A stretch of 64,000 nt of DNA, taken from assembly GCF_004354985.1 (NCBI RefSeq), contig NZ_SMSK01000003.1, positions 310,001 through 374,000 of the forward strand, in the 5' to 3' direction. A model generated the notes under the pieces. The model worked only from the letters and a program-made list of their open reading frames with translations. It did no database searches and was not told the DNA's origin. The stretch is from Segetibacter sp. 3557_3 (GTDB taxonomy: Bacteria > Bacteroidota > Bacteroidia > Chitinophagales > Chitinophagaceae). A program made the translations under genes and the position numbers. Positions 8,222-56,718 of the stretch are shown here, piece by piece (within the stretch, counting starts at the first letter, position 1; every line of letters begins with the position of its first letter).

Positions 8222-8277
8222 TAAAGCCATATGCAGCAGTAAGAAACCGATATTGTGAACCAGAACCCTTTTACCAT

Positions 8278-9165
8278 ATGAGCCGACTGGCCGACCCGAA
8301 AACGCTGATGGCAATAAAAGACCTGCCGCTGGCTGCAAAAACCACGGTAGATGGATTTTTGGCGGGCATACACAACAGCAGCGTAAAGGGTATTGGCATG
8401 GAGTTCAGCCAATATCGAAGTTATCAGCCAGGCGATGATCTTCGCCGCCTCGACTGGAAGATGTTTGCCCGATCCGACCGTTATTACATCCGTGAGTCAG
8501 AAATAGAAACCAGTATATCGGTGCGGCTACTTGTTGATGCAAGCGCATCAATGAACCATACATCGGGGGCTTTTACCAAAATAGAATACGCGCGATACCT
8601 CGCAGCTTCTCTCGCTTACCTGGCACAAAGGCAGGGTGATGCAACCGGCTTGTTTGTGTTCCGGCAAGGCGAACTGTTTTCCCTTCCCGCACGCCAGGAT
8701 CATCAGCACCTTGCCCGCATTTATTACCAGCTGGAACAGATCGATCCACAAGGTGGATTCACCAACCCGGTAGATTATAAAAGCATTTTCTCCGGTATCA
8801 ACAAAAGAGAGCTGCTCATCTTTATCACCGATTATTACGAGCAGGATGGAGAGATTAGCCGTTTGTTACATGCGTTGGCTTCGAATAAACATGAGATTAT
8901 TGTCTTTCACCTGCTTGCACCTAACGAAATAAACCTCGATTACAAAGGTTTTAGCACGCTTGAGGACCTTGAAACGGGCAAAACCATTCGTATTGATCCA
9001 TCACAAAGCAAGCAGCTATACAAGCAGGCTTTAGAGAAATACCTTGCGGATGTACGCGCAGGATTACTGGACAAAAACATTTTTTACCGCTTAATCAATA
9101 CTGAACACCCGGTGGATGAGGCATTGCGGGACTTTCTTGTGCAACGAAATAAAATCCGGGGCTGA
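8278..9165 (+). CDS. DUF58 domain protein (vWA-like), MoxR partner
   Basis: The 295-residue protein carries the DUF58 signature QYRSYQPGDDLRRLDWKMFAR at about residues 46-65, then a vWA-type LLVDASASM with the DxSxS metal-site pattern at residues 87-91. Tail residues contain a second conserved TDYYEQDGE. No signal peptide or membrane segment is visible. DUF58 proteins are regular partners of MoxR ATPases, which are proposed to remodel or load their metal site. The ATG at 8278 fits the family start. It is followed by the membrane gene after 2 bp, so the two are surely co-transcribed. Confidence 0.93.
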   Translation: MSRLADPKTLMAIKDLPLAAKTTVDGFLAGIHNSSVKGIGMEFSQYRSYQPGDDLRRLDWKMFARSDRYYIRESEIETSISVRLLVDASASMNHTSGAFTKIEYARYLAASLAYLAQRQGDATGLFVFRQGELFSLPARQDHQHLARIYYQLEQIDPQGGFTNPVDYKSIFSGINKRELLIFITDYYEQDGEISRLLHALASNKHEIIVFHLLAPNEINLDYKGFSTLEDLETGKTIRIDPSQSKQLYKQALEKYLADVRAGLLDKNIFYRLINTEHPVDEALRDFLVQRNKIRG

Positions 9166-9167
9166 CG

Positions 9168-10646
9168 ATGTACTTTCTTCAATCCATATGGTTATTGGCG
9201 ATTGCAGGCATTATTGTTCCAATTGTCATTCACTTATGGAATGTTAGGTCGGGCAAGGTGCTGAAAGTGGGTAGTATTGCTTTGCTATCCGAGCGTTCAC
9301 GAGCGCATGCAACCAGCTTTAAGCTTTCAGACCTGCTGCTTCTGATCCTTCGCTGCCTTATTTTGATTGCACTGGCGTTGCTGCTGGCTAAGCCGTATTA
9401 TTTACAACAAACCAGGCAAACGGCAGAAAAGGGCTGGTTGTTAATCGAAAGGCAGCACATCGGCCGGGCTTACACCATCTATGGATCCACGATAGATTCC
9501 CTGATAAACGCCGGTTTTACGTTTCGATATTTCGAACCCGGTTTTCAAAAGGCAGATTGGGAGCAGGTAAAACAGGCAGTCAACGATACCGGCTTAAGGA
9601 GCATTTTGAACTACTGGGGGCTGGTGAAATCACTCGACCAGCTGGCACCAGAACGACTTCCGATTTACCTGTTTACCACAAATCGCCTTCAGCACTTTTC
9701 CGGCGCAAGGCCGGTTGTTGCCATGAACCTGAACTGGCGGGTATACTCAACCCTGGATACCATACAAACGAGTATTGTCGATGCTTTCAGAACTGCGGCT
9801 AACCGGCTGAAAGTTATACAGGAGACCTCATCATCAAAGGCCATAAGTTATCTTGCTGTCGATACGGCTTCCTACGTTAAGGCTATCCATCAGGGCAATG
9901 AGGGCCAACCTTATTTAATAACGCAAACCGGCGACAGCATTCCGGTGGCCACCAGTAAGTTAAAGGTGGTTATTTATTCAGGCAAACAAGTCAATGACGG
10001 GAGGTACGTTAATGCAGCATTGCGGGCCATTCAGGACTTTACTGAAAGGCCAATATCAATTGCATTCACAACACAGAAGAATGGGGTCCCGGCAGGTGAT
10101 TGGCTCTTTTGGCTCAGTGATGAAGCACTGCCATCAACATCGCACAAACACATCTTTGTATATGCCGGCGGCAAACCATTGGCTCAGTATTCAACCGGGA
10201 TTATACCAATGGGATTGCCGATCGCCGCTAATCTTTATCAACAGGTAAATGCACCGGAAACTTTACAACACAACGCAGTTGTGCTCTGGAAGGATGGCTT
10301 CGGAAGGCCATTACTCACCAGCGAACAAGGTCAGTCGACAGTTTACCGCTATTACAGTCGCTTTGATCCGGCCTGGAACGATCTCGCTTGGAGCAGCCAA
10401 TTTCCGGAACTACTTTATCGCTTAATGTTCAACCACGCGGAAGCGGAATTTACCGGCACCGATCTTCGGAGTATAGATCCACTGCAAATTGCCCCGGTTA
10501 CTAAGCCGGCAAACGTTGCCGCTGCGAAGCCGGAGCTCGCAGAGAAAAAAGATCTGAGCCGCTGGTTTTGGTTGCTTGCATTCCTCTTGTTTATTGCGGA
10601 ACGCTGGGTATCTCTGCACAACAAAAAAGGAGTCGTCAATGCATGA
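9168..10646 (+). CDS. BatA-type N-terminal domain membrane protein
   Basis: The 492-residue product begins with the Bacteroidota BatA N-terminal pattern: LQSIWLLAIAGIIVPIVIH as a first membrane helix, a short linker, then a second helix around residues 55-77 (LLLLILRCLILIALALLLA). A long extracytoplasmic region follows without a clear vWA MIDAS motif, and a last helix near residues 468-485 ends the protein. The role is probably structural or regulatory in the MoxR complex at the inner membrane. It starts 2 bp after the DUF58 stop and its own stop overlaps the next start by 8 bp, showing translational coupling. Confidence 0.88.
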   Translation: MYFLQSIWLLAIAGIIVPIVIHLWNVRSGKVLKVGSIALLSERSRAHATSFKLSDLLLLILRCLILIALALLLAKPYYLQQTRQTAEKGWLLIERQHIGRAYTIYGSTIDSLINAGFTFRYFEPGFQKADWEQVKQAVNDTGLRSILNYWGLVKSLDQLAPERLPIYLFTTNRLQHFSGARPVVAMNLNWRVYSTLDTIQTSIVDAFRTAANRLKVIQETSSSKAISYLAVDTASYVKAIHQGNEGQPYLITQTGDSIPVATSKLKVVIYSGKQVNDGRYVNAALRAIQDFTERPISIAFTTQKNGVPAGDWLFWLSDEALPSTSHKHIFVYAGGKPLAQYSTGIIPMGLPIAANLYQQVNAPETLQHNAVVLWKDGFGRPLLTSEQGQSTVYRYYSRFDPAWNDLAWSSQFPELLYRLMFNHAEAEFTGTDLRSIDPLQIAPVTKPANVAAAKPELAEKKDLSRWFWLLAFLLFIAERWVSLHNKKGVVNA

Positions 10647-43263: not shown

Positions 43264-43748
43264 ATCTCACCGCGGAGAACAAGAGAAGCAGAGACTACGC
43301 AGAGAGAATGTGATTATCGGATTCCGAATTAGCGTATGGCGGATTAAAACCCACCCCAGAGAACGGGATTATCGGATCCCGAATTAGCGGATGGCGGATT
43401 AAAACCCACCGCAGAGATCGGGATTATCTGATGCCGAATAGACGATTTGCGGATCCAATTTGGTGCAATAATCATGTCCGCGGGCAAAAATGAATTTTAC
43501 ATTTTACATTTTTCATTTTACATTATTAAACCGCGGAGAACAAGAGCAGCAGAGACTTCGCAGAGAGAATGTGATTATCTGATTCCGAATTAGCGAATGG
43601 CGAATAAATTAATGCGATGATCATGTTCCCCGGCAGAGGTAATTTTTTACATTTTACATTTTTCATTTTTTACCGCAGAGACCAATAGCTGCACATATTT
43701 CGCAGGCCCTATTCTGATTTTTTACTTTTGACTTTTGACTTTTTGCAT
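43264..43748. repeat. Word tract upstream of GH78, including the left 242/297-bp inverted arm (43269-43565)
   Basis: A unit of about 240 bp runs through GCGGAGAACAAGAG, GTGATTATCGGATTCCGAAT, AGACGATTTGCGGATCC and TTTTACATTTTACAT words. The reverse complement of the unit lies at 46671-46912 beyond the GH78 gene, near-identical over long stretches. The left arm has one extra 55-bp tandem unit (CCAGAGAACGGGATTATCGG onward), which accounts exactly for its greater length. A second, more divergent half copy follows at 43566-43690, then TTTTGACTTTTGACTTTTT words up to the start codon. Confidence 0.9.
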
Positions 43749-46514
43749 ATGAAATTTACTTCCCCGATTATCGCGCTTTGCGTCGTTGCAATAACGTTCA
43801 CCTCGTTTCGCGACAAGCCTTCCACAGCTGTCCAGCTCGTGAACCTTCGCACCGAAATGCTGACCAACCCGCTTGGTATTGATACGCGTAAACCAAGGTT
43901 GAGCTGGGAGCTTGCCAGTGATCAGCGGGGTGTTGAACAGGTTGCCTACAACGTACTCGTTGCATCGTCTCCCTCAAAGCTGGCGGCGAATGAAGGCGAC
44001 CTGTGGAACTCGGGAAAAGTAAGTTCCAATCAATCTATTCACATCAGCTATAATGGAAAACCTTTACACAGCAGGGCTGAGTGCTACTGGAAAGTAAAAA
44101 CCTGGACCAAAACCGGTGAGAACGAATGGAGCAGTGCCCAACACTGGAGCATGGGCCTGCTGGAAAAAACAGATTGGCAAGCTAAGTGGACGGGCCTGGA
44201 TAAAGCTTTTCCGTGGGATAGCGTAACTAAAATGTCGAGGCTTTCTGCGAGGTATTTTCGAAAGAACTTTACTGCACCAAAACAGTTGCAAAAGGCTACC
44301 GTCTACATTAGTGGATTAGGTCTTTATGAACTTTATATCAACGGTCAGAAAATCGGCGACCAGGTACTGGCACCGGCACCCACTGACTATTCGCAATCGC
44401 TGTTGTACAACACTTTTGATGTCACCAACAACATCAAGACCGGAACAAATGCAATTGCCACTGTTTTGGGCAATGGCCGCTTCTTCGCCATGCGCCAAAA
44501 TTATAAACCGCAAAAGTGGCACACCTTCGGTTATCCCAAAATGCTCCTGCAATTGGAGATGGTATTTACCGATGGCAGTAAACAAACCGTCATCAGTGAT
44601 GGCTCATGGAAGGTTACGGCTGACGGGCCAATACGAACCAACAATGAATATGATGGCGAAGAATACGACGCCACTAAAGAGATCCCCAACTGGAACTACC
44701 CCATCTTCGACGACCGCAAATGGTTAGATGCACAACTGGTAAAGGCTCCTGGTGGCAGGGTTGTTTCACAGATGACCCCACCCATGAAAGTGATGGAAAC
44801 CTTAAAGCCGGTTTCGGTAAAACAGTTGCGGGGCGACACGGTGATCATGGACATGGGCCAGAACATGGCAGGATGGGTGCGGATGAAAGTTAAAGGCGAT
44901 CGTGGAAGAAAAGTAACCCTGCGGTTTGCAGAAAGCCTTACCCCTGATGGTGGCCTGTATACGGCAAACCTCCGGGACGCCCTTGTAACTGATGTTTACA
45001 CCTTACGCGGCATAGGTGAAGAAACCTGGGCACCCAGCTTCGTTTACCACGGGTTTCGTTATGTGGAAATTACCAACTACCCTGGCAAAGCAGGCGTGGG
45101 GGACTTTGTAGGAGAGGTCGTATATGATCAAATGCAAACTACCGGAACGTTTGAAACCTCGGACCGGACGATTAACCAGATCCATAAAAATGCTTATTGG
45201 GGTATCCGTGGCAATTACAAAGGCATGCCGATTGATTGCCCACAGCGAAACGAACGTCAGCCCTGGCTTGGCGATCGAGCCACCGGCGCTTATGGCGAGA
45301 GTTTCATTTTCGACAATGGAAAGTTGTATGCCAAATGGCTGAAGGATATCCAGCAATCTCAAACTGCTGAAGGCAGCATTCCGGATGTAGCGCCCAGCTT
45401 TTGGTTTTACTATAAAGACAATGTAACCTGGCCTGGTACCTACCTGATGATCGCGAATATGCTGTACAATCAGTACGGCGATAAACAACCCATCATCGAT
45501 CACTATGCATCCATGAAAAAGTGGATGAAATATATGCAGGGTAAATACATGACGAACTACATCGTAACAAAAGACAGTTATGGTGATTGGTGCGTTCCTC
45601 CGGAATCACCGGAGCTGATTCACTCCAAAGATTCATCGCGTATTACCGACCCGCAGCTGCTTGCTACAGCAACCTATTACCATATGTTACAGCTCATGCA
45701 ACGTTTCGCGACCCTCAGCGGACAAACCGCTGACGTGCCCGGCTATGCGGCGCTGGCAGAAAAGGTGAAAGCTGCTTTTCAAAAAAAGTTCTACAATCCG
45801 GAAACGAAGAATTACAGCAACAATACGGTAACCGCAAACATTCTTCCACTGGCATTTAAGATGGTGCCTGAGGGTGCTGATGAAGCCGTGTTTCAACACA
45901 TCGTTGATAAGACGATGATTGAAAATAAGGGACACATCAGTACCGGTGTAATTGGCACCCAGTGGTTGATGCGTTGGCTAACAAAATATGGAAGAGCCGA
46001 CATTGCATTTCGGCTCGCTTCCATCAGGGATTATCCAAGCTGGGGCTATATGGCCGAAAACGGCGCCACTACTATTTGGGAATTGTGGAACGGCAATACG
46101 GCAAACCCAAGTATGAATTCGCAAAATCATGTCATGCTGCTCGGCGACCTGGTGGTATGGTATTATGAAAACCTAGGCGGCATCAAAACAAGCACGGAAA
46201 ACCCCGGATTTAAAGTCATTGAAATGAAGCCTTCTTTTGTTGAGGGCCTCACGAAAGTTCATGCCTCGTACCAATCGGTACATGGCCTTATTAAAAGTGA
46301 ATGGAATAAGACCGGATCATCATTGAAGTGGGACATCAGTGTTCCCGGCAACGCAAAAGCAATCGTGTTTATACCAGCTTCATCCTCTGCTGCAGTCATG
46401 GAGAGTGGGAAGGCTATTCCGGATACCGAAACCGTAAAGTTCCTGCGTATGGAAGCCGGCAATGCGGTGTACGAAGTAGGATCGGGGAGTTATTCGTTTT
46501 CGACTGGCAAATAA
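43749..46514 (+). CDS. GH78 alpha-L-rhamnosidase
   Basis: The ATG at 43749 gives a signal-peptide-like start (KFTSPIIALCVVAITFTS) and 921 residues; an upstream frame extension of 7 codons was rejected. The N-terminal beta-sandwich is the usual one: RPRLSWEL-type KPRLSWELASDQRGV and YWKVKTW. The (alpha/alpha)6 barrel holds IDCPQRNERQPWLGDRATG near residues 495-513, containing the candidate acid Glu, and the late EWGATTIWE-type GATTIWELWNGN with the second Glu. It would release L-rhamnose from rhamnogalacturonan oligosaccharides in the periplasm. It lies between large inverted repeats. Confidence 0.92.
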   Translation: MKFTSPIIALCVVAITFTSFRDKPSTAVQLVNLRTEMLTNPLGIDTRKPRLSWELASDQRGVEQVAYNVLVASSPSKLAANEGDLWNSGKVSSNQSIHISYNGKPLHSRAECYWKVKTWTKTGENEWSSAQHWSMGLLEKTDWQAKWTGLDKAFPWDSVTKMSRLSARYFRKNFTAPKQLQKATVYISGLGLYELYINGQKIGDQVLAPAPTDYSQSLLYNTFDVTNNIKTGTNAIATVLGNGRFFAMRQNYKPQKWHTFGYPKMLLQLEMVFTDGSKQTVISDGSWKVTADGPIRTNNEYDGEEYDATKEIPNWNYPIFDDRKWLDAQLVKAPGGRVVSQMTPPMKVMETLKPVSVKQLRGDTVIMDMGQNMAGWVRMKVKGDRGRKVTLRFAESLTPDGGLYTANLRDALVTDVYTLRGIGEETWAPSFVYHGFRYVEITNYPGKAGVGDFVGEVVYDQMQTTGTFETSDRTINQIHKNAYWGIRGNYKGMPIDCPQRNERQPWLGDRATGAYGESFIFDNGKLYAKWLKDIQQSQTAEGSIPDVAPSFWFYYKDNVTWPGTYLMIANMLYNQYGDKQPIIDHYASMKKWMKYMQGKYMTNYIVTKDSYGDWCVPPESPELIHSKDSSRITDPQLLATATYYHMLQLMQRFATLSGQTADVPGYAALAEKVKAAFQKKFYNPETKNYSNNTVTANILPLAFKMVPEGADEAVFQHIVDKTMIENKGHISTGVIGTQWLMRWLTKYGRADIAFRLASIRDYPSWGYMAENGATTIWELWNGNTANPSMNSQNHVMLLGDLVVWYYENLGGIKTSTENPGFKVIEMKPSFVEGLTKVHASYQSVHGLIKSEWNKTGSSLKWDISVPGNAKAIVFIPASSSAAVMESGKAIPDTETVKFLRMEAGNAVYEVGSGSYSFSTGK

Positions 46515-47104
46515 TGAAAAATGAAAAAGTTCATTTCTGCTTCGGAACAAGATCATTGCATAGATTGAATCCTCCATTCGTTAATCCGGAATCCGCAAAT
46601 CCGTAAATCTTCTTCGCCCGATCTCTGCGGTAAAAAAGTCAAAAGTCAAAATTAAGAAGTAAAAAAAGGACTCTGCGAAGTCTCTGCTTCTCCCGTTCTC
46701 TGCGGTTCAAAAATGTAAAATAAAAAATGTAAAATGTAAAATTCATTTCTGCCCGGGGACATGATTATTGCACCAAATTGGATCCGCAAATTGTCTATTC
46801 GGCATCAGATAATCCCGATCTCTGCGGTGGGTTTTAATCCGCCATCCGCTAATTCGGAATCCGATAATCACATTCTCTCTGCGAAGTCTCTGCTTCTCTC
46901 GTTCTCTGCGGTAAAAAGTCAAAAGTAAAAATTAATAAGTCAAAAAAGGACTCTGCGAGGTCTCTGCTTCTCCCGTTCTCTACGGTTCAAAAATGTAAAA
47001 TGTAAAATGTAAAACGGAACTCTGCGCCAACTCTGCCTCTCTCGTTCTCTGCGGTTCTGTATTCAATCCGCGGTTCGCTAATCCGTTAATTCACTAATCA
47101 TATC
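46515..47104. repeat. Word tract downstream of GH78, including the right inverted arm (46671-46912)
   Basis: The tract opens with TGAAAAATGAAAAAG directly after the stop, then CCGTTAATCCGGAATCCGC and CTCTGCGAAGTCTCTGCTTC words. The arm at 46671-46912 mirrors the left arm. The rest (46913-47104) repeats CTCTGCGAGGTCTCTGCTTC and ends in TTCGCTAATCCG words before the DUF3826 start. No gene is supported in these 590 bp. Confidence 0.9.
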
Positions 47105-47815
47105 ATGAAATCAAACATAATCACTGCCGCAATTATTAGTGGCCTCCTGCTGTCATCTTCAGCCTATAGCCAAACCCAGAGCGTTGCAACACCTGCAGCC
47201 TCCTCCGACAACAAAGCAAAGTCCGACGAGGACCAGGAAAAACGGGCCGCTGAATGGATCGGTTCACTTAACCTGAACGATGCCGGTAAAGAAGCCCGCC
47301 TACGGACTGTCGTTGTTACACACTTAAAAACCATTCGCGACTGGCACAACGAACATCCCCCTTCAACTGTGCCAGCAGGCATCAACCCGGTAACCGGCAA
47401 CAAACTGAGCGACCTTGAGAGGCAGGTCATTGCCAACTCGGCAATGCCGAAGTCAGTTCATGAAAACCTCATGTCGGGTTTAAGAAAGGACCTCACTGAA
47501 GACCAGGTGGAACTGGTGTTGGATAAATACACCATTGGTAAAGTGGCGTTCACGATGAATGGGTACAAGTCCATCGTTCCCAACATGACCGAAAAGGAGG
47601 AATCTACAATCCTCGCCTTTTTAAAACAGGCGCGCGAGCAGGCGGTGGATTATAAAAACATGAACCAGATCTCTGCAATATTCGAGATCTATAAAACAAA
47701 GTCGGAACAATACCTCAACAACAATGGCCGCAACTGGCGCCAGATGTACAAGGAATATACCGATGCGGTTAAAGCGAAAAAAGCTGCGGCTGCAGCTGCA
47801 AAACCCACCCAATAA
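47105..47815 (+). CDS. Secreted DUF3826 protein, second paralogue
   Basis: The 236-residue protein has a signal peptide ending in SAYSQ. The DUF3826 region includes LNDAGKEARLRTVVVTHLKTIRDWH, LTEDQVELVLDKYTIGKVAF and NMTEKEESTILAFLKQAREQAVD, matching the paralogue at 18404-19270 in its last two segments (there SLTEAQKKQIMLWLVEAREHAMD). It ends in a Lys/Ala-rich tail. Alpha-helical, with no recognisable catalytic motif. The two paralogues lie near the two ends of the pectin locus, suggesting a role tied to it; no activity is known to me. Confidence 0.85.
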   Translation: MKSNIITAAIISGLLLSSSAYSQTQSVATPAASSDNKAKSDEDQEKRAAEWIGSLNLNDAGKEARLRTVVVTHLKTIRDWHNEHPPSTVPAGINPVTGNKLSDLERQVIANSAMPKSVHENLMSGLRKDLTEDQVELVLDKYTIGKVAFTMNGYKSIVPNMTEKEESTILAFLKQAREQAVDYKNMNQISAIFEIYKTKSEQYLNNNGRNWRQMYKEYTDAVKAKKAAAAAAKPTQ

Positions 47816-47968
47816 TAGGGAAGGGGGTGGAGTTTTGGGATCGGATACACCGCATAAGTCGTAAGCGTCACAGTCTCACTGAGATGATTACTGTAAATTC
47901 AAAAACGATCTTTATAAAAGATCAGGTAATCACCTTTACGACATAAAAGGGCAAAAAATCTAAACGGT

Positions 47969-49096
47969 ATGATGAGAAGAAATCTGTTGATGTTGTTTTT
48001 AGCAACTATGTTGGCTCCCCGGGCATTTGCCCAGCTAAAACTTTGGCAACAGGGGCTTGTAGCACAGGAGTTCATTTTCGATAAAGCGCCTTTTCCCGAA
48101 AGCCATAGTGCCACCATTGAAGAGACACCAAAGGGTTTGGTTGCAGCATGGTTTGGCGGAACCAAAGAACGCAACCCCGATGTGGAGATCCGCGTAAGTC
48201 GCCGGGTAAACGGTAAATGGACAGCACCGGTGTCCGTTGCAAATGGTATACAAAACGATACCCTTCGATATCCCACATGGAACCCTGTTTTGTACCAGGT
48301 TCCTAATGGTGAGCTCCTGTTGTTTTACAAGATTGGTCCCAAGCCTTCCGAATGGAAAGGATGGATGATCTCATCGAAGGATGCGGGTATCACCTGGTCA
48401 CAGCCAAAGGCACTACCGGAAGACATAATCGGACCTGTAAAAAACAAGCCGGTGCTCGTGGGTAAAAGACTGATTTCCCCATCAAGCACCGAAGGCTCAG
48501 GTGGAAAACTGCATTTCGAGATATCGGACGATTTCGGAAAAACGTGGCGGAAAGTGGGCCCGATTAATGGTGAAGAATTCAATGCCATACAGCCCACCAT
48601 TTTCGTTCATAAGGATGGTAAGCTCCAGATATTTGCACGTAGTCGCAATCGCGCCATTCTTGAGTCGTGGTCGAAGGACAAAGGCGAAACCTGGTCACCA
48701 CTGGCGAAGTCGTCGCTGCCAAACAATGCGTCAGGATTTGATGGTGTCACCCTGAAAGATGGGCGTCACCTTTTGGTATACAACCACGTACTTGCGCCGG
48801 GTGATGAACCAAAGGGCGCTCGTACCCCGCTGCATATTGCGGTTTCAAAAGATGGTAAAAACTGGTTTGCTTCCATGTTGTTGGAGGACTCGCCGATCAG
48901 CCAGTATTCTTACCCTGCGGTTATCCAGTCGAGAGATGGTATGGTACACGTGGCGTATACCTGGAGACGTCAAAAAATCAGGTATGCAAAACTTGATCCC
49001 TCAAAATTGAAGATGATTCCGATCGTAAATGGAAAATGGCCGGACCTACCCGGCTATACCGCGCCAAAAGCTGGTGAGGTTACCGATGAGCAATAG
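47969..49096 (+). CDS. Secreted BNR/sialidase-fold protein (exo-alpha-sialidase-like family)
   Basis: The 375-residue protein has a signal peptide ending in APRAFAQ. FPESHSATIEETPKGLVAAWFGGTKE, RVSRRVNGKWTAPVSVANG, and four Asp-box-like repeats (SKDAGITW, SDDFGKTW, SKDKGETW, SKDGKNW) define a six-bladed sialidase fold. RSRNRAILESWS and SQYSYPAVIQSRDGMVHVAYTWRRQKI fit the catalytic face of the family. In pectin loci such proteins are not expected to act on sialic acid; a uronic or deoxy-keto sugar is more likely. It is the last carbohydrate gene before the transposase. Confidence 0.85.
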   Translation: MMRRNLLMLFLATMLAPRAFAQLKLWQQGLVAQEFIFDKAPFPESHSATIEETPKGLVAAWFGGTKERNPDVEIRVSRRVNGKWTAPVSVANGIQNDTLRYPTWNPVLYQVPNGELLLFYKIGPKPSEWKGWMISSKDAGITWSQPKALPEDIIGPVKNKPVLVGKRLISPSSTEGSGGKLHFEISDDFGKTWRKVGPINGEEFNAIQPTIFVHKDGKLQIFARSRNRAILESWSKDKGETWSPLAKSSLPNNASGFDGVTLKDGRHLLVYNHVLAPGDEPKGARTPLHIAVSKDGKNWFASMLLEDSPISQYSYPAVIQSRDGMVHVAYTWRRQKIRYAKLDPSKLKMIPIVNGKWPDLPGYTAPKAGEVTDEQ

Positions 49097-49133
49097 CTGT
49101 TCCCCTGGCTAAACCGTTTGAAAGTCCGGAAAA

Positions 49134-49161
49134 GAATATTAGTTTATCGCAAACTAAATTC
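49134..49161 (+). repeat. Hairpin just upstream of the Y1 transposase start
   Basis: GAATATTAGTTT and AAACTAAATTC pair, with one bulged A, around ATCGC. It lies 9-36 bp before the ATG. Position and shape resemble the subterminal hairpins of IS200-type elements or an mRNA structure that could limit translation. Confidence 0.5.
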
Positions 49162-49169
49162 TTCACTAC

Positions 49170-49643
49170 ATGAAGAAATCAAACACGTACACCAGGTTGC
49201 ACATTCATTTTGTTTTTGCGGTAAAGTTCAGGGCCGCCGTTATTGATCAACAATGGGAGGATCATTTGCACAAATACATCACCGGGATCGTTCAAAACAA
49301 CGGGCATAAAATGCTCTGCATAAATACTGTCCCGGACCATCTTCATTTCATCGCCGGCATCAACCCGACACAATCCATTTCGAAGATGATGGAGCTGGTC
49401 AAGGGCGATAGTTCCGAGTTTGTCAATAAGGAACAGTTTACCGCCAGGAAGTTTTATTGGCAAAGCGGTTTTGGAGCATTCAGTGTAAGCTATTCGCACG
49501 TCGACCGAGTTATAAAGTATATACTGAACCAAAAGCAACACCACCAGGTAAGCACGTTTAAGCAAGAGTACGTCAAGATGCTTGTCGATAACCAGGTTGA
49601 TTATAATGAGCAATATATCTTCCAGGATCTTGCGGATGATTAA
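49170..49643 (+). CDS. Single-domain Y1 (HUH) transposase, IS200/IS605 TnpA-like, possible RAYT
   Basis: The 157-residue protein has the IS200-type order: THIHFVFAVKFR-like start (RLHIHFVFAVKFR), the HUH metal motif DHLHFI with His57 and His59, FYWQSGFGAFSVS, and the nucleophile helix VIKYILNQKQHH with Tyr117 and Gln121. It should nick and rejoin single-stranded DNA at hairpins. All catalytic residues are present, so it may be active. No TnpB is nearby. About 75 bp after its stop a long array of GCCCCAGCGGGGC palindromes begins, which suggests a REP-associated tyrosine transposase rather than a simple insertion sequence. Its orientation is the same as that of its neighbours. Confidence 0.9.
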   Translation: MKKSNTYTRLHIHFVFAVKFRAAVIDQQWEDHLHKYITGIVQNNGHKMLCINTVPDHLHFIAGINPTQSISKMMELVKGDSSEFVNKEQFTARKFYWQSGFGAFSVSYSHVDRVIKYILNQKQHHQVSTFKQEYVKMLVDNQVDYNEQYIFQDLADD

Positions 49644-49819
49644 TGTTCCCCCCGTTGATTTTGTGTATATCGGAACCGTCTCAAACTCCATTGCTGGCGT
49701 ACTGAATAAATGGCTAGCCCCGCTGGGGCATCGCTTGCTGAGGGTGGTTGTTAGGTTAGCAAGTGGGTAGCCCCGCTGGGGCATTGAGTCCTCCCTCATC
49801 ACGGCAATGCATTCCCATA

Positions 49820-49852
49820 CCGTGGTAACAACATGTTGCCCCGCAGGGGCAT
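49820..49852 (+). repeat. Left inverted boundary repeat of the palindrome array
   Basis: CGTGGTAACAACATGTTGCC and the attached palindrome are the reverse complement of the sequence at 51631-51663, differing only in the two central bases of the palindrome. Confidence 0.85.
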
Positions 49853-51630
49853 GGATCCGATGTCCATGATCGCGCGCTACAACCCATTTGTTTTCAAAAT
49901 TTGTTGATCGGGTTTCATGCCCCAGCGGAGCATCCCATCAGTCACCCCATTTGTCACACAATGCAATCCATGCCCCAGCGGGGCAACCCAATGGTGCGGG
50001 ATATTGAACATAATCAATGCTGCATTTCATCAAACCGCGACAACCTCTGTGTAACATGATGGGGTCTGTGCCCGATAGCGGGTACCCAATTGCAAAATCA
50101 ATCGACAAATTGATGAGCATGTCCCAGCGCGATAATCCCCTGGGTAACCCGTATAGGAGCATGCCCCAGCGACGAAACCTACCCTGTAACACCATGCCGT
50201 CCATGCCCCAGCGGGGCAACATATCCTTAGACACGGTTCATAAATCAAATGTCCATGCCCCAGAGGGGCAACCCATTTGTGCGGGATATTGAACATAATC
50301 AATGCTACATTTCATCAAACCGCGACCACCTCTGTGTAACACGATGGGGTCTATGCCCGATAGAGGCTACGCAATTGCAAAATCAATCGACAAATTGGAT
50401 GATCACGCCCCGTCGCGATAATACACTGGGTAACCCGTATAGGTGCACGCCCCAGGGGCGAAACCTACCCTATAATCCAATGCCGTCCATGCCCGAGCGG
50501 GGCAACATATCCTTAGACACGGTTCATAAATCCAATGTCCATGCCCCAGCGGGGCAACCCATTTGTGCGGGAGGTTGAACGTAATAAATGGTGCATTTCG
50601 TCAAACCGCGACCACCTCTGTGTAACACGATGGGGCCTATGCCCGATAGGGGCTACCCAATTGGAAAATCAATCGACAAAATGGATGATCACGCCCCGTC
50701 GCGATAATACACTGGGTAACCCCTATAGGTGCACGCCCCAGCGGCGAAACCTACCCTGTCACACCATGCCGTCCATGCCCCAGCGGGGCAACCCATTGGT
50801 GCGGGATATTGAACATAATCAATGCTGCATTTCATCAAACCGCGACAACCTCTGTGTAATATGATGGGGTCTATACCCGATAGCGGCTACGCAATTGCAA
50901 AATCAATCGACAAATTGGATAAACATGCCCCAGCGCAACAATCCACTGGGTAACCCGTATAGGTGCACGCCCCAGGGCGAAACCTACCCTGTAACACCAT
51001 GCCGTCCATGCCCCAGCGGGGCAACCCATTGGTGCGGGATATTGAACATAATCAATGCTGCATTTCATCAAACCGCGACCACCTCTGTGTAACACGATGG
51101 GGTCTATGCCCGATAGAGGCTACGCAATTGCAAAATCAATCGACAAATTGGATGATCACGCCCCGTCGCGATAATACACTGGGTAACCCGTATAGGTGCA
51201 CGCCCCAGCGGCGAAACCTACCCTGTAACACCATGCCGTCCATGCCCCAGAGGGGCAACATATCATTAGACACGGTTCATAAATCGAATGTTTATGCCCC
51301 AGCGGAGCAACATATCGTTAGACACGATTCATAGATCCGGTTCCATGCCCCAGCGGGGCAACATATCATTAGACACGGTTCATAAATCGAATGTCCATGC
51401 CCCAGAGGGGCAACCCATTTGTGCGGGATATTGAACATAATCAATGCTACATTTCATCAAACCGCGACCACCTATGTGTAACACGATGGGGTCTATCCCC
51501 GATAGAGGCTACGCAATTGCAAAATCAATCGACAAATTGGATGAGCATGCCCCAGCGCAACAATCCACTGGGTAATCCGTATAGGAGCATGCCCCAGCGG
51601 CGAAACCTACCCGGTAACACAATGCCGTTC

Positions 51631-51663
51631 ATGCCCCAGCGGGGCAACATGTTGTTACCACGT
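51631..51663 (-). repeat. Right inverted boundary repeat of the palindrome array
   Basis: GGGGCAACATGTTGTTACCA, preceded by its palindrome, mirrors 49820-49852. The two enclose all six higher-order units. Confidence 0.85.
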
Positions 51664-51846
51664 CGCGCGACAAACCCTGTGTATCACGATCGGGTCCAAA
51701 CGCCATCAGGGCAACCCATCTGCTTGAATTGATTGATCGGATGTTCATGTTCCGGCGCTACCAGCCATTTGTTTTCAAAATTTGTTAATCGGGTTCCATG
51801 CCCCACCGGCGCTACCCAGTTGTTCTTGTTCGATTGCAAAACAGCC

Positions 51847-53445
51847 ATGAAAAATCTACCCATATTTGACCTCGCCATCATCATCATCTACCTCCTGACG
51901 ATGGTGTTTGTGGGTTATTATTTCTCGCGCAAAAACCGAAATTCCGACCAGTTCACCAAAGCTTCCGGCTCTATACCCGGGTGGGCAATTGGCCTATCCA
52001 TATACGCGACATTCCTGAGCAGTAATACTTTCCTGGGTGTTCCCGGAAAAGCATTTGGCTCTAACTGGAATGCTTTTGTTTTCAGCATATCCATGCCTTT
52101 CGCCGCCTGGATCGCATCAAAATATTTTGTGCCCTTTTACCGGCAAACGGGTGAAATTTCCGCTTATACCCACCTCGAAAACCGGTTTGGTCCCTGGGCG
52201 CGAACGTACACTGTTGTTTGTTTCCTCCTAACCCAACTTGCCCGCATGGGTTCCATCTTTTTTGGAATTGCCCTTAGCCTGCAGGCGCTGCTGGGTTACC
52301 CTATGGCAACGATTATGATCGTCATGGGTATTTGCATAATCCTCTATACCGTAATGGGTGGTATGGAAGCGGTAATCTGGACAGAGGTCGTACAAGGGGT
52401 AATTAAAACACTTGGTGCCCTGCTTATCCTGTACCTTATCGTTTCCGAAATGCCGGGCGGGGTTTCCGGCATTATCGATATCGGTATGCAGGAGAATAAA
52501 TTCAGCCTCGGCAGCTTGAGTCCGGATTTAACCCAGTCAACTTTTTGGGTGGTGCTTTTTTACGGGTTCTTTATCAACCTGAATAATTTTGGAATGGACC
52601 AGAATTATGTGCAGCGTTATCATACAGCTACGTCATCAAAGCAAGCCTCCCGTTCAATATGGTTGTGCGTCGCATTATATGTTCCCGCTTCATTGTTGTT
52701 CTTCATCATTGGCGCGAGCCTGTTTGCTTACTACCAGGTTCATCCCGAGATGATCGAAACGGTGAAGCTGAATGTTGCGGCCGAACGCCTCGGCGGTGGG
52801 GCGACAGCAAACCAGGTTTCCGGAATGGCTGCATCATTAACACCTGCTGATTATGGCGATAAAGTGATGCCGCATTTCATGGTCACGAAGATCCCTACCG
52901 GGCTTGTCGGGCTCATTGTATCCGCTATACTTTCGGCAGCCATGAGCACCATCAGTTCGGGAATGAACTCCTCCGCCACGGTGTTCACAATGGACATCTA
53001 TAAACGATACTTCCGCCCCAACATCGGCGAAAAAGGCAAGTTGTACACCTTGCACGTGGCTACTGTTGTATTTGGTTTACTAGGGCTCGCCACGGGCATC
53101 GCGATGATAGGCATCAAAAGCCTGCTCGATATCTGGTGGGAACTCTCCGGCATATTTGCCGGGGGTATGCTGGGATTGTTTTTGTTGGGTATCATCAGCC
53201 GGCAAACCAGGAGCCATGAAGCATTTACCGCAACCGCAATTGGCATTGTCGTAATCTTATGGATGACCTTTTCGGTTTACCTCCCCGACCGGTATGCCTT
53301 CCTGCGCAATCCATTGCACAAGAGTATGGTAATCATCGTAGGTACCTTAACAATTTTTCTTGCGGGCCTGCTGTTAACCGCAGCAAAAACAAAGGTCAAA
53401 TTAACCTTGCCGACAGAGGAGCCCGTATCCACGATTGAACCGTAG
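51847..53445 (+). CDS. Sodium:solute symporter (SSS family)
   Basis: The ATG at 51847 gives 532 residues with about 13-14 membrane segments. IFDLAIIIIYLLTMVFVGYYF opens it; SGSIPGWAIGLSIYATFLSSNTFLGVPG contains the conserved sodium-site helix; GGMEAVIWTEVVQG and ILSAAMSTISSGMNSSATVF are typical. The frame is open upstream through the repeat array, but only the ATG at 51847 precedes the first helix. It probably brings a sugar or sugar acid across the inner membrane; the next gene encodes a DapA-family aldolase, as in sialic acid and other keto-acid loci. The GC-rich array sits directly upstream and could affect expression. Confidence 0.92.
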   Translation: MKNLPIFDLAIIIIYLLTMVFVGYYFSRKNRNSDQFTKASGSIPGWAIGLSIYATFLSSNTFLGVPGKAFGSNWNAFVFSISMPFAAWIASKYFVPFYRQTGEISAYTHLENRFGPWARTYTVVCFLLTQLARMGSIFFGIALSLQALLGYPMATIMIVMGICIILYTVMGGMEAVIWTEVVQGVIKTLGALLILYLIVSEMPGGVSGIIDIGMQENKFSLGSLSPDLTQSTFWVVLFYGFFINLNNFGMDQNYVQRYHTATSSKQASRSIWLCVALYVPASLLFFIIGASLFAYYQVHPEMIETVKLNVAAERLGGGATANQVSGMAASLTPADYGDKVMPHFMVTKIPTGLVGLIVSAILSAAMSTISSGMNSSATVFTMDIYKRYFRPNIGEKGKLYTLHVATVVFGLLGLATGIAMIGIKSLLDIWWELSGIFAGGMLGLFLLGIISRQTRSHEAFTATAIGIVVILWMTFSVYLPDRYAFLRNPLHKSMVIIVGTLTIFLAGLLLTAAKTKVKLTLPTEEPVSTIEP

Positions 53446-53840
53446 TGCAAAAAAGTTTTGGTACCGGCATTTGTTCATTGACGGATCGTCGTTGCCCGCC
53501 CGGGCGCGCCAGTCGGACGGGCGTCGCATTGCGTTCGTCGGCAAACCATTGTGCAGCTGCAGCCTTAGCGGTAATATGTACACGAAAAGGCAACAGCAAA
53601 CGAAAGGTAGTTTTAGATGGACTATTATTTAATCAACCGGAACCTGCGTTGTTCCCGGTAATGATTTTACTTTGCTGCAAGGCGACGAAATCACCATTTG
53701 GATAACCGGTATTGGCACAATGGTGAACATTGTAGAATGAACCCAGGTGTCACCTTATTTGCAGCAAAAATGAAACGATAGCATATTTCAGATTATGCAC
53801 TTGCCTGCAGTTTTACACTCCATATTTTAAATGATCGTTT
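53446..53840. other. Intergenic region, 395 bp, with a dispersed element
   Basis: No supported gene. Copy K of the dispersed element with its GC-rich hairpin occupies 53451-53540. The rest (53541-53840) shows no repeat, motif or coding pattern that I can recognise. Confidence 0.6.
53451..53540 (-). repeat. Dispersed element, copy K, with GC-rich hairpin insert (53494-53522)
   Basis: AAGTTTTGGTACCGGCATTTG opens the element 6 bp after the symporter stop. The hairpin GCCCGCCCGGG ... AGTCGGACGGGC sits between CGTCGTTG and GTCGCATTGCG, the same site as in copy D. It lies where a terminator would be expected. Confidence 0.75.
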
Positions 53841-54821
53841 ATGCAATTACCTGATAAGAAATTTGTTCCTGTAATGATCACCCCGTTTAACCTTAAAGCA
53901 AAGGTTGACCTGGATGCGGTTTCAAGGCTGGTTGATTTTTACCTGGCCGCCGGGGTGAAAGGGTTTTTCGCCAATTGCCTGAGCAGCGAAATGTACAGCA
54001 TCAGCGAAGACGAAAGGCTTGACCTTACCCGGCATATTGTGCGCTATGTAAAAGGCCGGGCACCAATTGTAGCTACGGGCTCATTCGGACTTACCATCGA
54101 AGACAAAGCAGATTTTACCCAAAGGATATACGATACGGGCATCGACGCGGTTATCCTTATTACCGGGCACTATGCCAACGTCGACGATGATGACGATGTA
54201 TTGATGCGCAACTTCGACAGGATGCTCAAACTTACCGGTGATATTCCATTGGGACTATACGAATGCCCTGCGCCATACAAACGCATATTGTCGGCACCCG
54301 TATTTGAAAAGCTGGTTGCTACCAACCGCTTTGTGTATCACAAAGACACGTCAATTGAGCTGGAGCAGGTAAAAGCAAAACTTGCAATTGCGAAGAACGA
54401 TCCCAACCTGGAGTTTTATGACGCGCACACACCAAACGCGATGCATTCGCTTCAAATGGGTGCTAGAGGTATGTCGTCGATCTCGGGAAACTTTTACCCT
54501 GAGATTTTGGTCTGGATGTGCAATAACGCTTCTAATCCGGATAAGCAGGAGGAAGTAAAATGGTTGCAAGCTGAACTTTCCGCTGTTGATCCCGCCATCC
54601 ACGTGGCTTATCCAATGAGTGCAAAATACTTCCTGCGTAAACGCGGCTTACCCGTGCGTACCATCAGCCGCGCCCATGCGCTTGAGCTTACACCCCAACA
54701 AAAACAAACCCTCGACGAAATCTATGATCGCTTCACAGGCTGGTGCGACAAGCTGGATATTACTCCGGTGAATGTCGAGGAACTCATGAAGCCGTTAATA
54801 CACCTGGATCCACCGATTTAG
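53841..54821 (+). CDS. DapA/N-acetylneuraminate-lyase family aldolase or dehydratase
   Basis: The 326-residue protein is a class I TIM-barrel aldolase: FVPVMITPFNLKAKVDLDAV, a GVKGFFANCLSSEMY segment in place of the usual GTTGE loop, IVATGSFG, Tyr140 in GLYECP and the Schiff-base Lys168 in YHKDTS. The family cleaves or dehydrates 2-keto acids such as sialic acid or 2-keto-3-deoxy sugars. The loop FFANCLSSEMY differs from typical DapA, so lysine biosynthesis is unlikely. It sits between the symporter and the isomerase gene and probably handles a keto acid from pectin breakdown (inference). Confidence 0.88.
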   Translation: MQLPDKKFVPVMITPFNLKAKVDLDAVSRLVDFYLAAGVKGFFANCLSSEMYSISEDERLDLTRHIVRYVKGRAPIVATGSFGLTIEDKADFTQRIYDTGIDAVILITGHYANVDDDDDVLMRNFDRMLKLTGDIPLGLYECPAPYKRILSAPVFEKLVATNRFVYHKDTSIELEQVKAKLAIAKNDPNLEFYDAHTPNAMHSLQMGARGMSSISGNFYPEILVWMCNNASNPDKQEEVKWLQAELSAVDPAIHVAYPMSAKYFLRKRGLPVRTISRAHALELTPQQKQTLDEIYDRFTGWCDKLDITPVNVEELMKPLIHLDPPI

Positions 54822-55305
54822 TGATGAGTTATGAATTGAGAGTTATGACTTGAGCAGCTTATGTTGAATGTTGTATGTTAATTGTTGAAGGGTTCGCGTG
54901 CAGAGTTATGTAGGTCATGTAGAAGTCGGATTTAGCTTTCGGGTTATGTCCTGGGATTATTTCTCAGCGCAGCCTTAGCCATTTTAACTCTCTACGTACA
55001 AAATTCAAAGGTCAAAATCAAAAAGTAAAAAGAACGGATTCTGCGAAGTCTCTGCTCTCATTTCTCTACGGTTTAATCCGTCATTCGCTAATCCGTGATT
55101 CGCTTCTCCTGTTCTCTGCGGTAAAAAATTCAAAAGTCAAATTCAAAAATAAAAAGAAGCCCCTTTGCTGCAGAAGTTTGATGAAGTCGGGACTACATGA
55201 ATCCGTCATTCGCTAATCCGTCATCCGTTAATCGGCTTTTCTCTGCCACTCTCGTTCTCTGCGGTTTAATCCGCTAATCCGTAATCCGCAAATTTTTAAG
55301 ACAAC
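54822..55305. repeat. Word tract between aldolase and isomerase genes
   Basis: After the stop come GATGAGTTATGAATTGAGAG words; further on are CTCTGCGAAGTCTCTGCTCTC, AATCCGTCATTCGCTAATCCG (twice) and GTTCTCTGCGGTTTAATCCG (three variants), ending just before the isomerase start. About 100 bp in the middle (54890-55000) lack the words. No gene is supported. Confidence 0.85.
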
Positions 55306-56718
55306 ATGACTGAAAAACTAACCCTTGGTGTAATCATTGGTAACCGCGATTTTTTTCCTGATAAACTCGTAGGTGAATGCCGTGCTGACCTTTTAACCGC
55401 ATTGGAAAAAGCAAACATTCGCCCGGTGATGCTGGAAGAAAGCGCCACCAAACTGGGTGGTGTAGAAACTTTCCAGGAAGCGCATAAGTGTGCCGAACTA
55501 TTTAAGTTACATGCACACGACATTGTTGGCGTATTGGTGGTGCTGCCAAATTTCGGCGATGAAAAAGGTGTTGCCGAAACCCTCAAGCTCGCGGGTCTGA
55601 ATGTACCCGTGCTCGTGCAGGCATATCCCGACGACCTGGATAAAATGGACGTCGCGCGCCGTCGCGACGCATGGTGCGGTAAAATTTCCGTTTGCAATAA
55701 CCTTTACCAATACGGGATAAAATTCTCGCTCACCACCAAGCACGTGGTACATCCTTCAGACGAATCGTTCGCAAACGACCTGCGTGAATTTGTTGCCGTT
55801 TGCCGTGTGGTACGCGGACTCAGAAAGGTTCGAATAGGTGCGGTAGGAGCAAGACCCGGTGCTTTCAATACCGTTCGGTATAGTGAGAAGATTTTGCAGC
55901 GCCACGGTATATCCGTGGTTACAGTGGACCTGTCGCACATTCTTGGTGCCGCCAACAAGCTCACCAAAGATGACGGTAGCGTAAAACTGCGCATGGATGA
56001 AATCCGCGCATACACATCTACCGGCCGTACCCCTGAAGATCGCCTGGTGCAGATCGCCAAACTCGATGTGGTATTAAGGGAATTTATGCAGGAACATGCA
56101 CTGGACGCTACCGCCATTCAATGCTGGACATCAATACAACAAAACTATGGTTGCAACGTATGTACGAGCATGAGTATGATGAGTGAAAACATGTTGCCAA
56201 GTGCCTGTGAAGTGGACGTAACCGGAACCCTCACCATGTATGCCATGCAGCTTGCTTCAGGATCACCCAGTGCACTTGTCGATTGGAACAACAACTATGC
56301 AAACGACGACGAAAAATGTGTTTTGTTTCATTGCGGTAACTGGGCAAAATCGTTTTTACCGGATATTGAAATCAGCACAGCCCCGATACTTGGAACAACA
56401 GTAGGTGAGGAAAACACCTATGGTGCACTTGCAGGTCGCACACCCGCTTCTGCACTTACCTATGGTCGCATTAGTACCGACGATAATAAGGGTATTATAA
56501 AGGCTTACTTTGGTGAAGGGAAACTTACCGATGATGCGCTCAATACTTTTGGTACCCGTGCGGTAGCCCAGATCAACGACCTGCAGGGGCTGATGAAGTT
56601 TGTTTGCAAAACAGGTTTTGAGCACCACGTAGTGATGAATGCTTCCAAAACAGGAACAATACTCAAAGAAGCTTTTGAGAACTACATGGATTGGGAGGTG
56701 TATCAACACGGAGGTTAG
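55306..56718 (+). CDS. L-fucose/L-arabinose isomerase-like sugar isomerase
   Basis: The 470-residue protein has the two-part layout of the fucose/arabinose isomerase superfamily: VIIGNRDFFPDKLVGECRAD at the start, VGVLVVLPNFGDEKGVAETL, then RIGAVGARPGAFNTVRYSEKIL and the later AIQCWTSIQQNYGCNVCTSMSMM with CEVDVTGTLTMYAMQLASG, where a Glu and Asp should bind metal. It interconverts an aldose and a ketose in the cytosol. The actual sugar cannot be read from the sequence. It lies upstream of a split transketolase and fucosidase, so fucose, apiose-type or other released sugars are possible. Confidence 0.82.
   Translation: MTEKLTLGVIIGNRDFFPDKLVGECRADLLTALEKANIRPVMLEESATKLGGVETFQEAHKCAELFKLHAHDIVGVLVVLPNFGDEKGVAETLKLAGLNVPVLVQAYPDDLDKMDVARRRDAWCGKISVCNNLYQYGIKFSLTTKHVVHPSDESFANDLREFVAVCRVVRGLRKVRIGAVGARPGAFNTVRYSEKILQRHGISVVTVDLSHILGAANKLTKDDGSVKLRMDEIRAYTSTGRTPEDRLVQIAKLDVVLREFMQEHALDATAIQCWTSIQQNYGCNVCTSMSMMSENMLPSACEVDVTGTLTMYAMQLASGSPSALVDWNNNYANDDEKCVLFHCGNWAKSFLPDIEISTAPILGTTVGEENTYGALAGRTPASALTYGRISTDDNKGIIKAYFGEGKLTDDALNTFGTRAVAQINDLQGLMKFVCKTGFEHHVVMNASKTGTILKEAFENYMDWEVYQHGG

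Follow-up and report, generated by a model that had tools for sequence, protein, structure and literature searches.

A probable REP/RAYT-like system built on a subclass 1.2 Y1 transposase and its hairpin array in Segetibacter sp. 3557_3

The window examined in this study is a 64,000-nucleotide (nt) stretch of the genome of Segetibacter sp. 3557_3 (contig NZ_SMSK01000003.1, positions 310,001 to 374,000), in which a gene for a Y1 (HUH) transposase is followed by an array of short palindromes related to GCCCCAGCGGGGC. Transposases that became keepers of a population of short palindromes (REPINs) have been studied mostly in proteobacteria, in the class 2 REP-associated tyrosine transposases (RAYTs), REP standing for repetitive extragenic palindrome. 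Judging from sequence comparisons, the gene and the array probably represent a REP/RAYT-like system built on an IS200-related enzyme of TnpA-Y1 subclass 1.2, which would have its own hairpin family and arrays that grow in cis. Such a hairpin-coupled relative of REP/RAYT systems is apparently undescribed; searching the open-licence PubMed Central (PMC) literature by title or abstract start, no description of hairpins for subclass 1.2 was found.

Transposase gene and palindrome array in the window

The initial annotation described an intact 157-residue HUH transposase (His57/His59, Tyr117) followed by more than twenty near-palindromes. The former was confirmed by an uninterrupted reading frame and a match to Pfam Y1_Tnp (E=2.2e-26), the residues concerned being D56-H57-L58-H59, W97-Q98 and Y117-I-L-N-Q121-K-Q-H124-H125. 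The latter was borne out by 25 sites with at most 3 mismatches from GCCCCAGCGGGGC, of which, in the better orientation, 9 were exact, 16 had at most 1 mismatch and 20 at most 2. Over the whole window and both strands, 53 matches with at most 3 mismatches were counted versus a mean of 14.4 (standard deviation 4.1) after shuffling, and none of 100 shuffles reached 53. Perfect hairpins (stem of at least 5 bp, loop of 3–4 nt, CC tip) were formed by 14 array sites, several of the 25 being no longer symmetric.

The array extends over approximately 2.1 kb, its first palindrome beginning 73 nt beyond the Y1 stop codon, and the three palindromes closest to the gene are inverted with respect to the remainder. 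Start-to-start spacing was mainly 52, 98, 94, and 42 nt, giving a four-site unit of 286 bp that repeats in tandem steps of 286, 234, and 52 bp. The spacing is not that of one 25–35-bp module, as reported initially. In the list below, type A sites carry a short box beginning 13 nt past the hairpin loop (offset 13) and type B sites do not.

49170 to 49643, plus strand: Y1 (HUH) transposase gene, 157 aa, TnpA-Y1 subclass 1.2 by signature
49717 to 51812, unstranded: whole palindrome array, 25 sites
49717 to 49729, minus strand: exact palindrome, inverted relative to the main array
49770 to 49782, minus strand: exact palindrome, inverted relative to the main array
49821 to 49853, unstranded: left arm of a 33-nt inverted repeat (97%, one mismatch) that brackets most of the array; partner at 51630-51662
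49838 to 49850, minus strand: palindrome GCCCCTGCGGGGC (as read on the minus strand), the left bracket of the array, with box GTTAC facing outward at offset 13
49851 to 49937, plus strand: 87-nt end module, first copy, an 84% repeat of 51732-51818 near the far end of the array
49967 to 50792, plus strand: tandem repeat, period 286 bp, 2.9 copies (the four-site unit)
49972 to 49984, plus strand: exact palindrome, type B, no box
50205 to 50217, plus strand: exact palindrome, type A, box CTTAG at offset 13
50257 to 50269, plus strand: palindrome GCCCCAGAGGGGC, type B, 52 nt beyond the type A site at 50205
50491 to 50503, plus strand: near-palindrome GCCCGAGCGGGGC, type A, box CTTAG
50537 to 51259, plus strand: tandem repeat, period 234 bp, 3.1 copies (the four-site unit minus one 52-bp module)
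50543 to 50555, plus strand: exact palindrome, type B, 52 nt beyond the type A site at 50491
50777 to 50789, plus strand: exact palindrome, type B, no box
51010 to 51022, plus strand: exact palindrome, type B, no box
51238 to 51414, plus strand: tandem repeat of the single 52-bp module, 3.4 copies
51244 to 51256, plus strand: palindrome GCCCCAGAGGGGC, type A, box ATTAG
51296 to 51308, plus strand: near-palindrome GCCCCAGCGGAGC, type A, box GTTAG
51347 to 51359, plus strand: exact palindrome, type A, box ATTAG
51399 to 51411, plus strand: palindrome GCCCCAGAGGGGC, type B, 52 nt beyond the type A site at 51347
51630 to 51662, unstranded: right arm of the 33-nt inverted repeat; its exact palindrome at 51633-51645 has box GTTAC facing outward at offset 13
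51732 to 51818, plus strand: 87-nt end module, second copy, repeat of 49851-49937
Further sites of the 25-site array, starts only: 49919, 50163, 50449, 50641, 50735, 50927, 51202, 51549, 51591, and 51800

Three other identities for the array were considered and rejected: a CRISPR-like structure, the spacers being repeated modules; a known RNA family, no Rfam match being obtained at E up to 1 over 48800-52000; and DNA of phage origin, with no match among 50,697 phage records.

Hairpins and a fixed-distance box beside related transposases

Homologous loci were chosen by protein alone as the best 80 of at least 587 candidates. All 80 entered the flank counts, and 4 loci with stops in the matched stretch were dropped from motif counts, leaving 76. 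Hairpins were scored by a stem of at least 5 bp, a loop of 3–4 nt, and a CC/GG tip. CC-tipped hairpins numbered 410 within 700 nt of the genes (103,565 bp) versus 47 beyond 1,500 nt (324,894 bp), which is 27-fold denser; at least one was present within 700 nt at 79 of the 80 loci and at least two at 75. Absence of the palindrome beside orthologous transposases, which the initial annotation had named as telling against its proposal, is thus contradicted. This main count includes self-closing 4-nt loops. A stricter count omitting them (76/80 loci positive) gave 385 hairpins near and 42 far, with 0.4- to 2.2-fold ratios for the 15 other tip dinucleotides, and the hairpin spacing in this count peaked at 50–55 nt. 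The stem consensus RYYCC was followed by 352 of the 410 hairpins, and 44 of 46 occurrences of GCCCC..GGGGC itself lay at most 600 nt from related Y1 genes.

A search among relatives yielded 32 loci, of which 19 were assigned to subclass 1.2 by our own choice (the alignment A1 set and L029) and 13 were classed as other. The 19, which include the window and may share species with the 80, had 3.2 CC-tipped hairpins per kb.

Outer stem letters were alike within a locus (0.775, versus 0.507 when shuffled; 72 loci with at least two hairpins), and stem letters were correlated with protein distance (r=0.38, 0/2000 permutations, 68 loci; GC-corrected 0.38, 0/1000), a correlation that shared ancestry alone could explain. 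Tandem repeats with a unit of 100–500 bp occurred within 700 nt of the gene at 15 of the 80 loci and beyond 1,500 nt at 2. Array size, determined for 87 loci (the window and 6 chosen relatives in addition to the 80), had a median of 4 hairpins and a maximum of 29 (L120), followed by 26 (L084), the window having 14 by the same rule. A long array in cis, as described in the initial annotation, is not peculiar to this locus.

For 167 of the 410 hairpins (approximately 40%), at 50 of the 80 loci, the sequence GGTA[AG] started at exactly 13 nt beyond the loop, against a mean of 0.8 and a maximum of 7 at other offsets. The same offset was found for 28 of 86 hairpins at the 19 relatives' loci (other offsets: mean 0.5, maximum 10) and for 0 of 26 hairpins beside 20 canonical RAYT genes. 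Boxed (type A) hairpins tended to lie outside and unboxed (type B) hairpins inside, with median distances of 87 and 74 nt versus 48 and 36.5 nt. At 22 of 29 loci, the type A hairpin closest to the gene on one side was inverted relative to its counterpart on the other, each having its box toward the gene. The window follows the scheme in weaker letters, with CTTAG, ATTAG, or GTTAG at offset 13 at five sites; each type A run leads to a boxless site 52 nt further, and the bracket hairpins carry GTTAC facing outward. The GT[AG]G known from the 5′ foot of RAYT palindromes had no counterpart, no 5′-foot block being conserved across the 80 loci; a few window copies read GTA or GTT ahead of GCCCC.

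Three records among these loci (L118, L122, and L130) are metagenome-assembled genomes titled Methylococcaceae, Streptomyces, and Planctomycetaceae that contain Bacteroidota-type Y1 genes, owing to either transfer or bin contamination.

Enzyme class, operon context and dispersal

The sections of Quentin et al. (2018; PMC6006769) drawn on here give as marks of subclass 1.2 the motifs Y---Q--HH, WQ, and DH[IV]H, a conserved C-terminal domain with a tail of approximately 30 residues, and low copy number, the hosts being mostly Cyanobacteria and Bacteroidetes. In the window protein these motifs read YILNQKQHH, WQ, and DHLH, the last with one conservative difference, and 32 residues follow HH. By this signature it is a TnpA-Y1 subclass 1.2 enzyme, related to IS200/IS605 and distinct from class 2 TnpA-REP. 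It passed the NCBIfam IS200/IS605 model NF033573 (74.4 bits, cut-off 55). Y---Q--HH was present in 73 of 76 translated homologue matches and in 24 of the 26 genes from relatives, and in none of the 19 canonical RAYTs or the 4 IS200 proteins. An AlphaFold model of the enzyme (mean pLDDT 85) was used as the Foldseek query; complexes of ISDra2 and IS608 TnpA with hairpin DNA ranked on top (E approximately 1e-8), and the E. coli-type TnpA-REP 4er8 was found at 3e-5.

A quick tree of 76 rows was built from one in three of the 76 stop-free homologue loci and the other groups; L194 (RAYT) and L204 (IS200), both with stops, were omitted from it and retained in the flank counts. The 19 RAYTs separated from the rest with support of 100. 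The window row was grouped at 97 with L014, L015, and L052, each with GCCCC..GGGGC hairpins in its vicinity. The four IS200 rows formed long branches inside the signature-bearing rows, so placed that their position is unsure and no monophyly is claimed. The phylogenetic check proposed initially set the RAYTs apart, and a firm grouping with mobile IS200 elements having defined ends was not found in this tree.

A canonical RAYT/REP system of class 2 TnpA-REP in Bacteroidota would account for palindromes adjoining a low-copy Y1 gene and for the REPIN-like inverted pairs of a relative described below. This explanation is extremely improbable, and class 2 membership was rejected: the window protein failed the NCBIfam RAYT model REP_Tyr_transpos (NF047646; 31.7 bits, cut-off 80), the tree split is at 100, and the Y motif reads YILNQKQHH in place of Y[IV]..NP, the motif YI..NP being present in 19/19 RAYTs and 0/106 other Y1 proteins and Y---Q--HH in none of the 19. 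Moreover, a 5′-foot GTAG is not conserved, and a box 13 nt past the loop is found instead. Of the initial proposal of a RAYT-like enzyme with its own palindromes, the palindrome population stands, the same kind being found beside related transposases, and the placement in the RAYT family is not supported.

The gene and the array lie between two genes of an apparent operon.

47969 to 49096, plus strand: BNR_2 protein gene, upstream of the insertion
51847 to 53445, plus strand: SSF symporter gene, downstream of the insertion

Among 19 BNR_2 loci of relatives, SSF follows BNR_2 directly in 7 (L165, L166, L168, L171, L174, L175, and L181, from six genomes) with a gap of at most approximately 0.2 kb; the other 12 had no SSF within the available stretch, and no Y1 gene was found at any of the 19, some genes being only partly aligned. 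In the window the gap is 2,750 nt and holds the Y1 gene and the array. Because BNR_2 and SSF are adjacent without Y1 in relatives, the gene and the array most likely entered an existing operon together, the alternative being repeated loss. The surroundings (43728-56718) are likely a sugar operon comprising a large open reading frame (ORF; 43728-46514), DUF3826, BNR_2, and the SSF symporter, followed by ORFs resembling DapA-type and sugar-isomerase-type proteins; these, like the ORF at 43728-46514, were judged by eye.

That the array is a passive tandem repeat, composed of the operon's regulatory, nucleoid-binding, or terminator hairpins and adjoining a transposase by chance, is very improbable. 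The seven related loci leave no room for an array between BNR_2 and SSF, no Rfam family matched, and hairpins accompany the gene at nearly all homologous loci, in surroundings unlike those of the window: 110 of 111 loci (flanks of up to 1.5–4 kb) have no relative of five window neighbour proteins, L052 having one. Such a repeat would fit the limitation of the copies to one genome site within an operon.

This limitation was seen in the window genome (6.75 Mb, 35 contigs, 100% complete by tool), where all 10 sites of GCCCCNGCGGGGC were inside the array (reversed control 0). The scattered copies for which the initial annotation suggested a search were thus not found in this genome. The looser pattern GCCCCN{2,5}GGGGC had 17 occurrences, of which 13 fell within the array; the 4 outside it, where the control gave 13, had other loops. 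The 2.2-kb array DNA had no second match in the rest of the genome. The Y1 gene is single-copy at the searched depth, with two paralogues 28–33% identical to it.

G000:C22:14448-14762: Y1 paralogue of the window genome, 28% identical, with a stop codon
G000:C3:3146-3589: Y1 paralogue of the window genome, 33% identical, with one hairpin downstream

Canonical RAYTs above the NF047646 cut-off were found in 33 of 79 genomes of the family, and none in the window genome at E up to 1e-15.

Dispersal of the cognate palindromes was observed in another genus of the same family. In its genome G018, hairpins of the same letters are scattered, with 93 sites of the looser pattern versus 2 for the control, and matches to hairpin plus tail numbered 69, 32, and 12 in the genus's three species (reversed-pattern control 0). 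The commonest order in the dispersed stretches read is B'-A'-A-B, where A is hairpin-GACACGTTAGTAG and B is hairpin-GACATGTTAAA, A and B being approximately 57 nt apart; both outward boxed tails were present in 14 of 20 stretches. Along a stretch of 19 kb that is collinear between the genomes, the element at G018:C2:102.9 kb is missing from the orthologous site of G112 and present, in longer form, in G111. At a second site on this stretch approximately 1.5 kb is missing in G112, which is not readable as an empty site. Inverted pairs that are dispersed and change between close genomes, as expected of REPINs, thus occur in G018 and its kin (the change at one site) and not in the window genome. 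The G018 genome also has another family of short dispersed repeats, apparently unrelated to these hairpins: L219 has two stretches of approximately 100 bp (8255-8370 and 9083-9187) matching dozens of places in G111 and G112.

The reading of gene and array as an ordinary IS200-type insertion sequence (IS), whose left and right ends, duplicated by slippage, would be the hairpins, is unlikely and retains some weight. It agrees with the passing of the IS200/IS605 equivalog, with an operon that in relatives is without both gene and array, and with the mutual inversion of the nearest boxed hairpins flanking the gene at 22/29 loci. Several near-identical copies with defined ends would characterise IS200/IS605 elements, but one copy was found at the searched depth, paralogues being far diverged, and as many as 29 hairpins occur at one locus. 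The boxes nearest the gene face inward and those of dispersed elements outward, so the gene does not simply lie between two outward ends. In the section of PMC6006769 concerned, moreover, subclass 1.2 is described as not sharing IS properties.

A domesticated enzyme, whose hairpins have a host or self-regulatory role (tnpA autoregulation, replication fork, or DNA uptake) with mobility as a relic, is likewise unlikely and is given little weight. Array sizes vary widely and sister species differ in the presence of one dispersed element, which fits continued movement; domestication would agree with the low copy number and with the interrupted Y1 genes beside the dispersed copies of G018 and G111.

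Several observations weigh against the preferred interpretation as a REP/RAYT-like system on a subclass 1.2 enzyme. As to the hairpins, L122 is the locus of the 80 without a CC-tipped hairpin within 700 nt, and a Bernardetia plasmid gene (L264 3001-3468), 46% identical and with the signature, has none within 3 kb on either side. Persicobacter has three hairpins within 700 nt, no GGTA[AG] box, and more copies 2–3 kb off, and the 33% paralogue of the window genome has a single such hairpin. The controls are not empty: the 13 weaker Y1 matches among relatives had 19 hairpins (1.1 per kb; at least two at 4/13 loci), the 20 canonical RAYT loci had 0.9 per kb (at least two CC-tipped hairpins at 7/20), and the canonical IS200 control, with 0 CC-tipped hairpins within 700 nt, is small at 3 loci. 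The exact box is missing from 243/410 hairpins and 30/80 loci, and the window boxes (CTTAG/ATTAG/GTTAG/GTTAC) differ from GGTA[AG]. As to mobility, the palindromes are not spread in the window genome, so that activity of the window copy in trans is at most putative. In the related genus, 7 of 20 dispersed stretches have four or more perfect hairpins, mostly as B'-A'-A-B, and the dispersed stretch L139 has a different order; the insertion comparison is that of one site and compatible with gain or loss, and the interruption of the neighbouring Y1 gene in G018 and G111 also counts here.

Proposed mechanism and relation to known systems

The Y1 enzymes IS608 TnpA, ISDra2 TnpA, and TnpA-REP contact the loop and stem of a single-stranded hairpin and pick the cut by a short guide, according to the portions of PMC8266576 used here. 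A constant tip, a locus-specific stem, and a box at fixed distance are what such an enzyme would need, and a hairpin-reading model is proposed. By analogy with these enzymes, the subclass 1.2 transposase would bind the hairpin as a single strand, reading tip and stem, cut at or near the box, and join the ends via Tyr117; the role of the box as the cut site is inferred. A hairpin pair with outward boxes would then be a mobile, REPIN-like unit. In the window, copies would have multiplied in cis only, by tandem duplication of the four-hairpin unit through the enzyme or ordinary slippage, so that the array may be a stock of ends beside its own enzyme, bracketed by the 33-nt inverted repeat with outward boxes (49821-49853 / 51630-51662) like one over-long unit. 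A circle formed from A-B-gene-B'-A' with its ends joined would read B'-A'-A-B, the commonest dispersed order.

A broader proposal is put forward tentatively, with slightly less than even confidence: subclass 1.2 would be hairpin-coupled by a fixed code (RYYCC-N3/4-GGRRY and a GGTAG-like box 13 nt past the loop) and would have arisen next to IS200 enzymes, separately from class 2 RAYTs, as a second origin of the transposase-palindrome partnership. Non-autonomous elements may have come from circle junctions, and in some lineages, including that of the window, the same process in cis may have led to long arrays.

The system shares with subclass 1.2 as described in the consulted sections of PMC6006769 the motifs DH-x-H, WQ, and Y---Q--HH, the tail of approximately 30 residues, low copy number, and a Bacteroidetes host, but differs in that Table 1 of that paper gives REP as 'no' for this subclass and its text describes the members as mostly lacking typical terminal IS200 structures, whereas CC-tipped hairpins were present within 700 nt at 79/80 loci. 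The tabulated entry describes the subclass without defining it, and the present counts dispute it. With class 2 TnpA-REP/RAYT and their REPs and REPINs, it has in common a low-copy Y1 gene beside its own palindromes and, in the related genus, dispersed inverted pairs; it differs in its separate tree branch, CC-N3/4-GG tip, box 13 nt past the loop, usual lack of GT[AG]G at the 5′ foot, and palindromes often amplified in cis. The IS200/IS605 elements IS608 and ISDra2 (subclass 1.1) are the closest solved structures and belong to the curated family, with hairpin ends read single-stranded; here, in contrast, there are many hairpins per gene, inward boxes around the gene, and low copy number. The TIRtrons/TIRYTs of Di Nocera et al. 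(2013; PMC3733652) similarly have Y1 genes between inverted, partly self-complementary repeats that are sometimes dispersed, but their terminal inverted repeats are long, some with GGGGWSAS, and neither a CC-N3/4-GG tip nor a 13-nt box is described in the sections of that paper concerned. For subclass 2.6 TnpA-REP, which occurs in Bacteroidetes, the same sections of PMC6006769 mention 'atypical secondary structures'; it resembles the present case in phylum and non-GTAG hairpins and differs in belonging to class 2, its Y motif containing NP.

The published negative on REPs in subclass 1.2 is thereby revised. If a second enzyme branch made the same partnership, in a simpler and very regular hairpin-plus-box layout of which several stages can be seen (single pairs, cis arrays, and dispersed elements whose enzyme is broken), the recognition code and the route from a gene-bearing element to a non-autonomous repeat would become directly testable.

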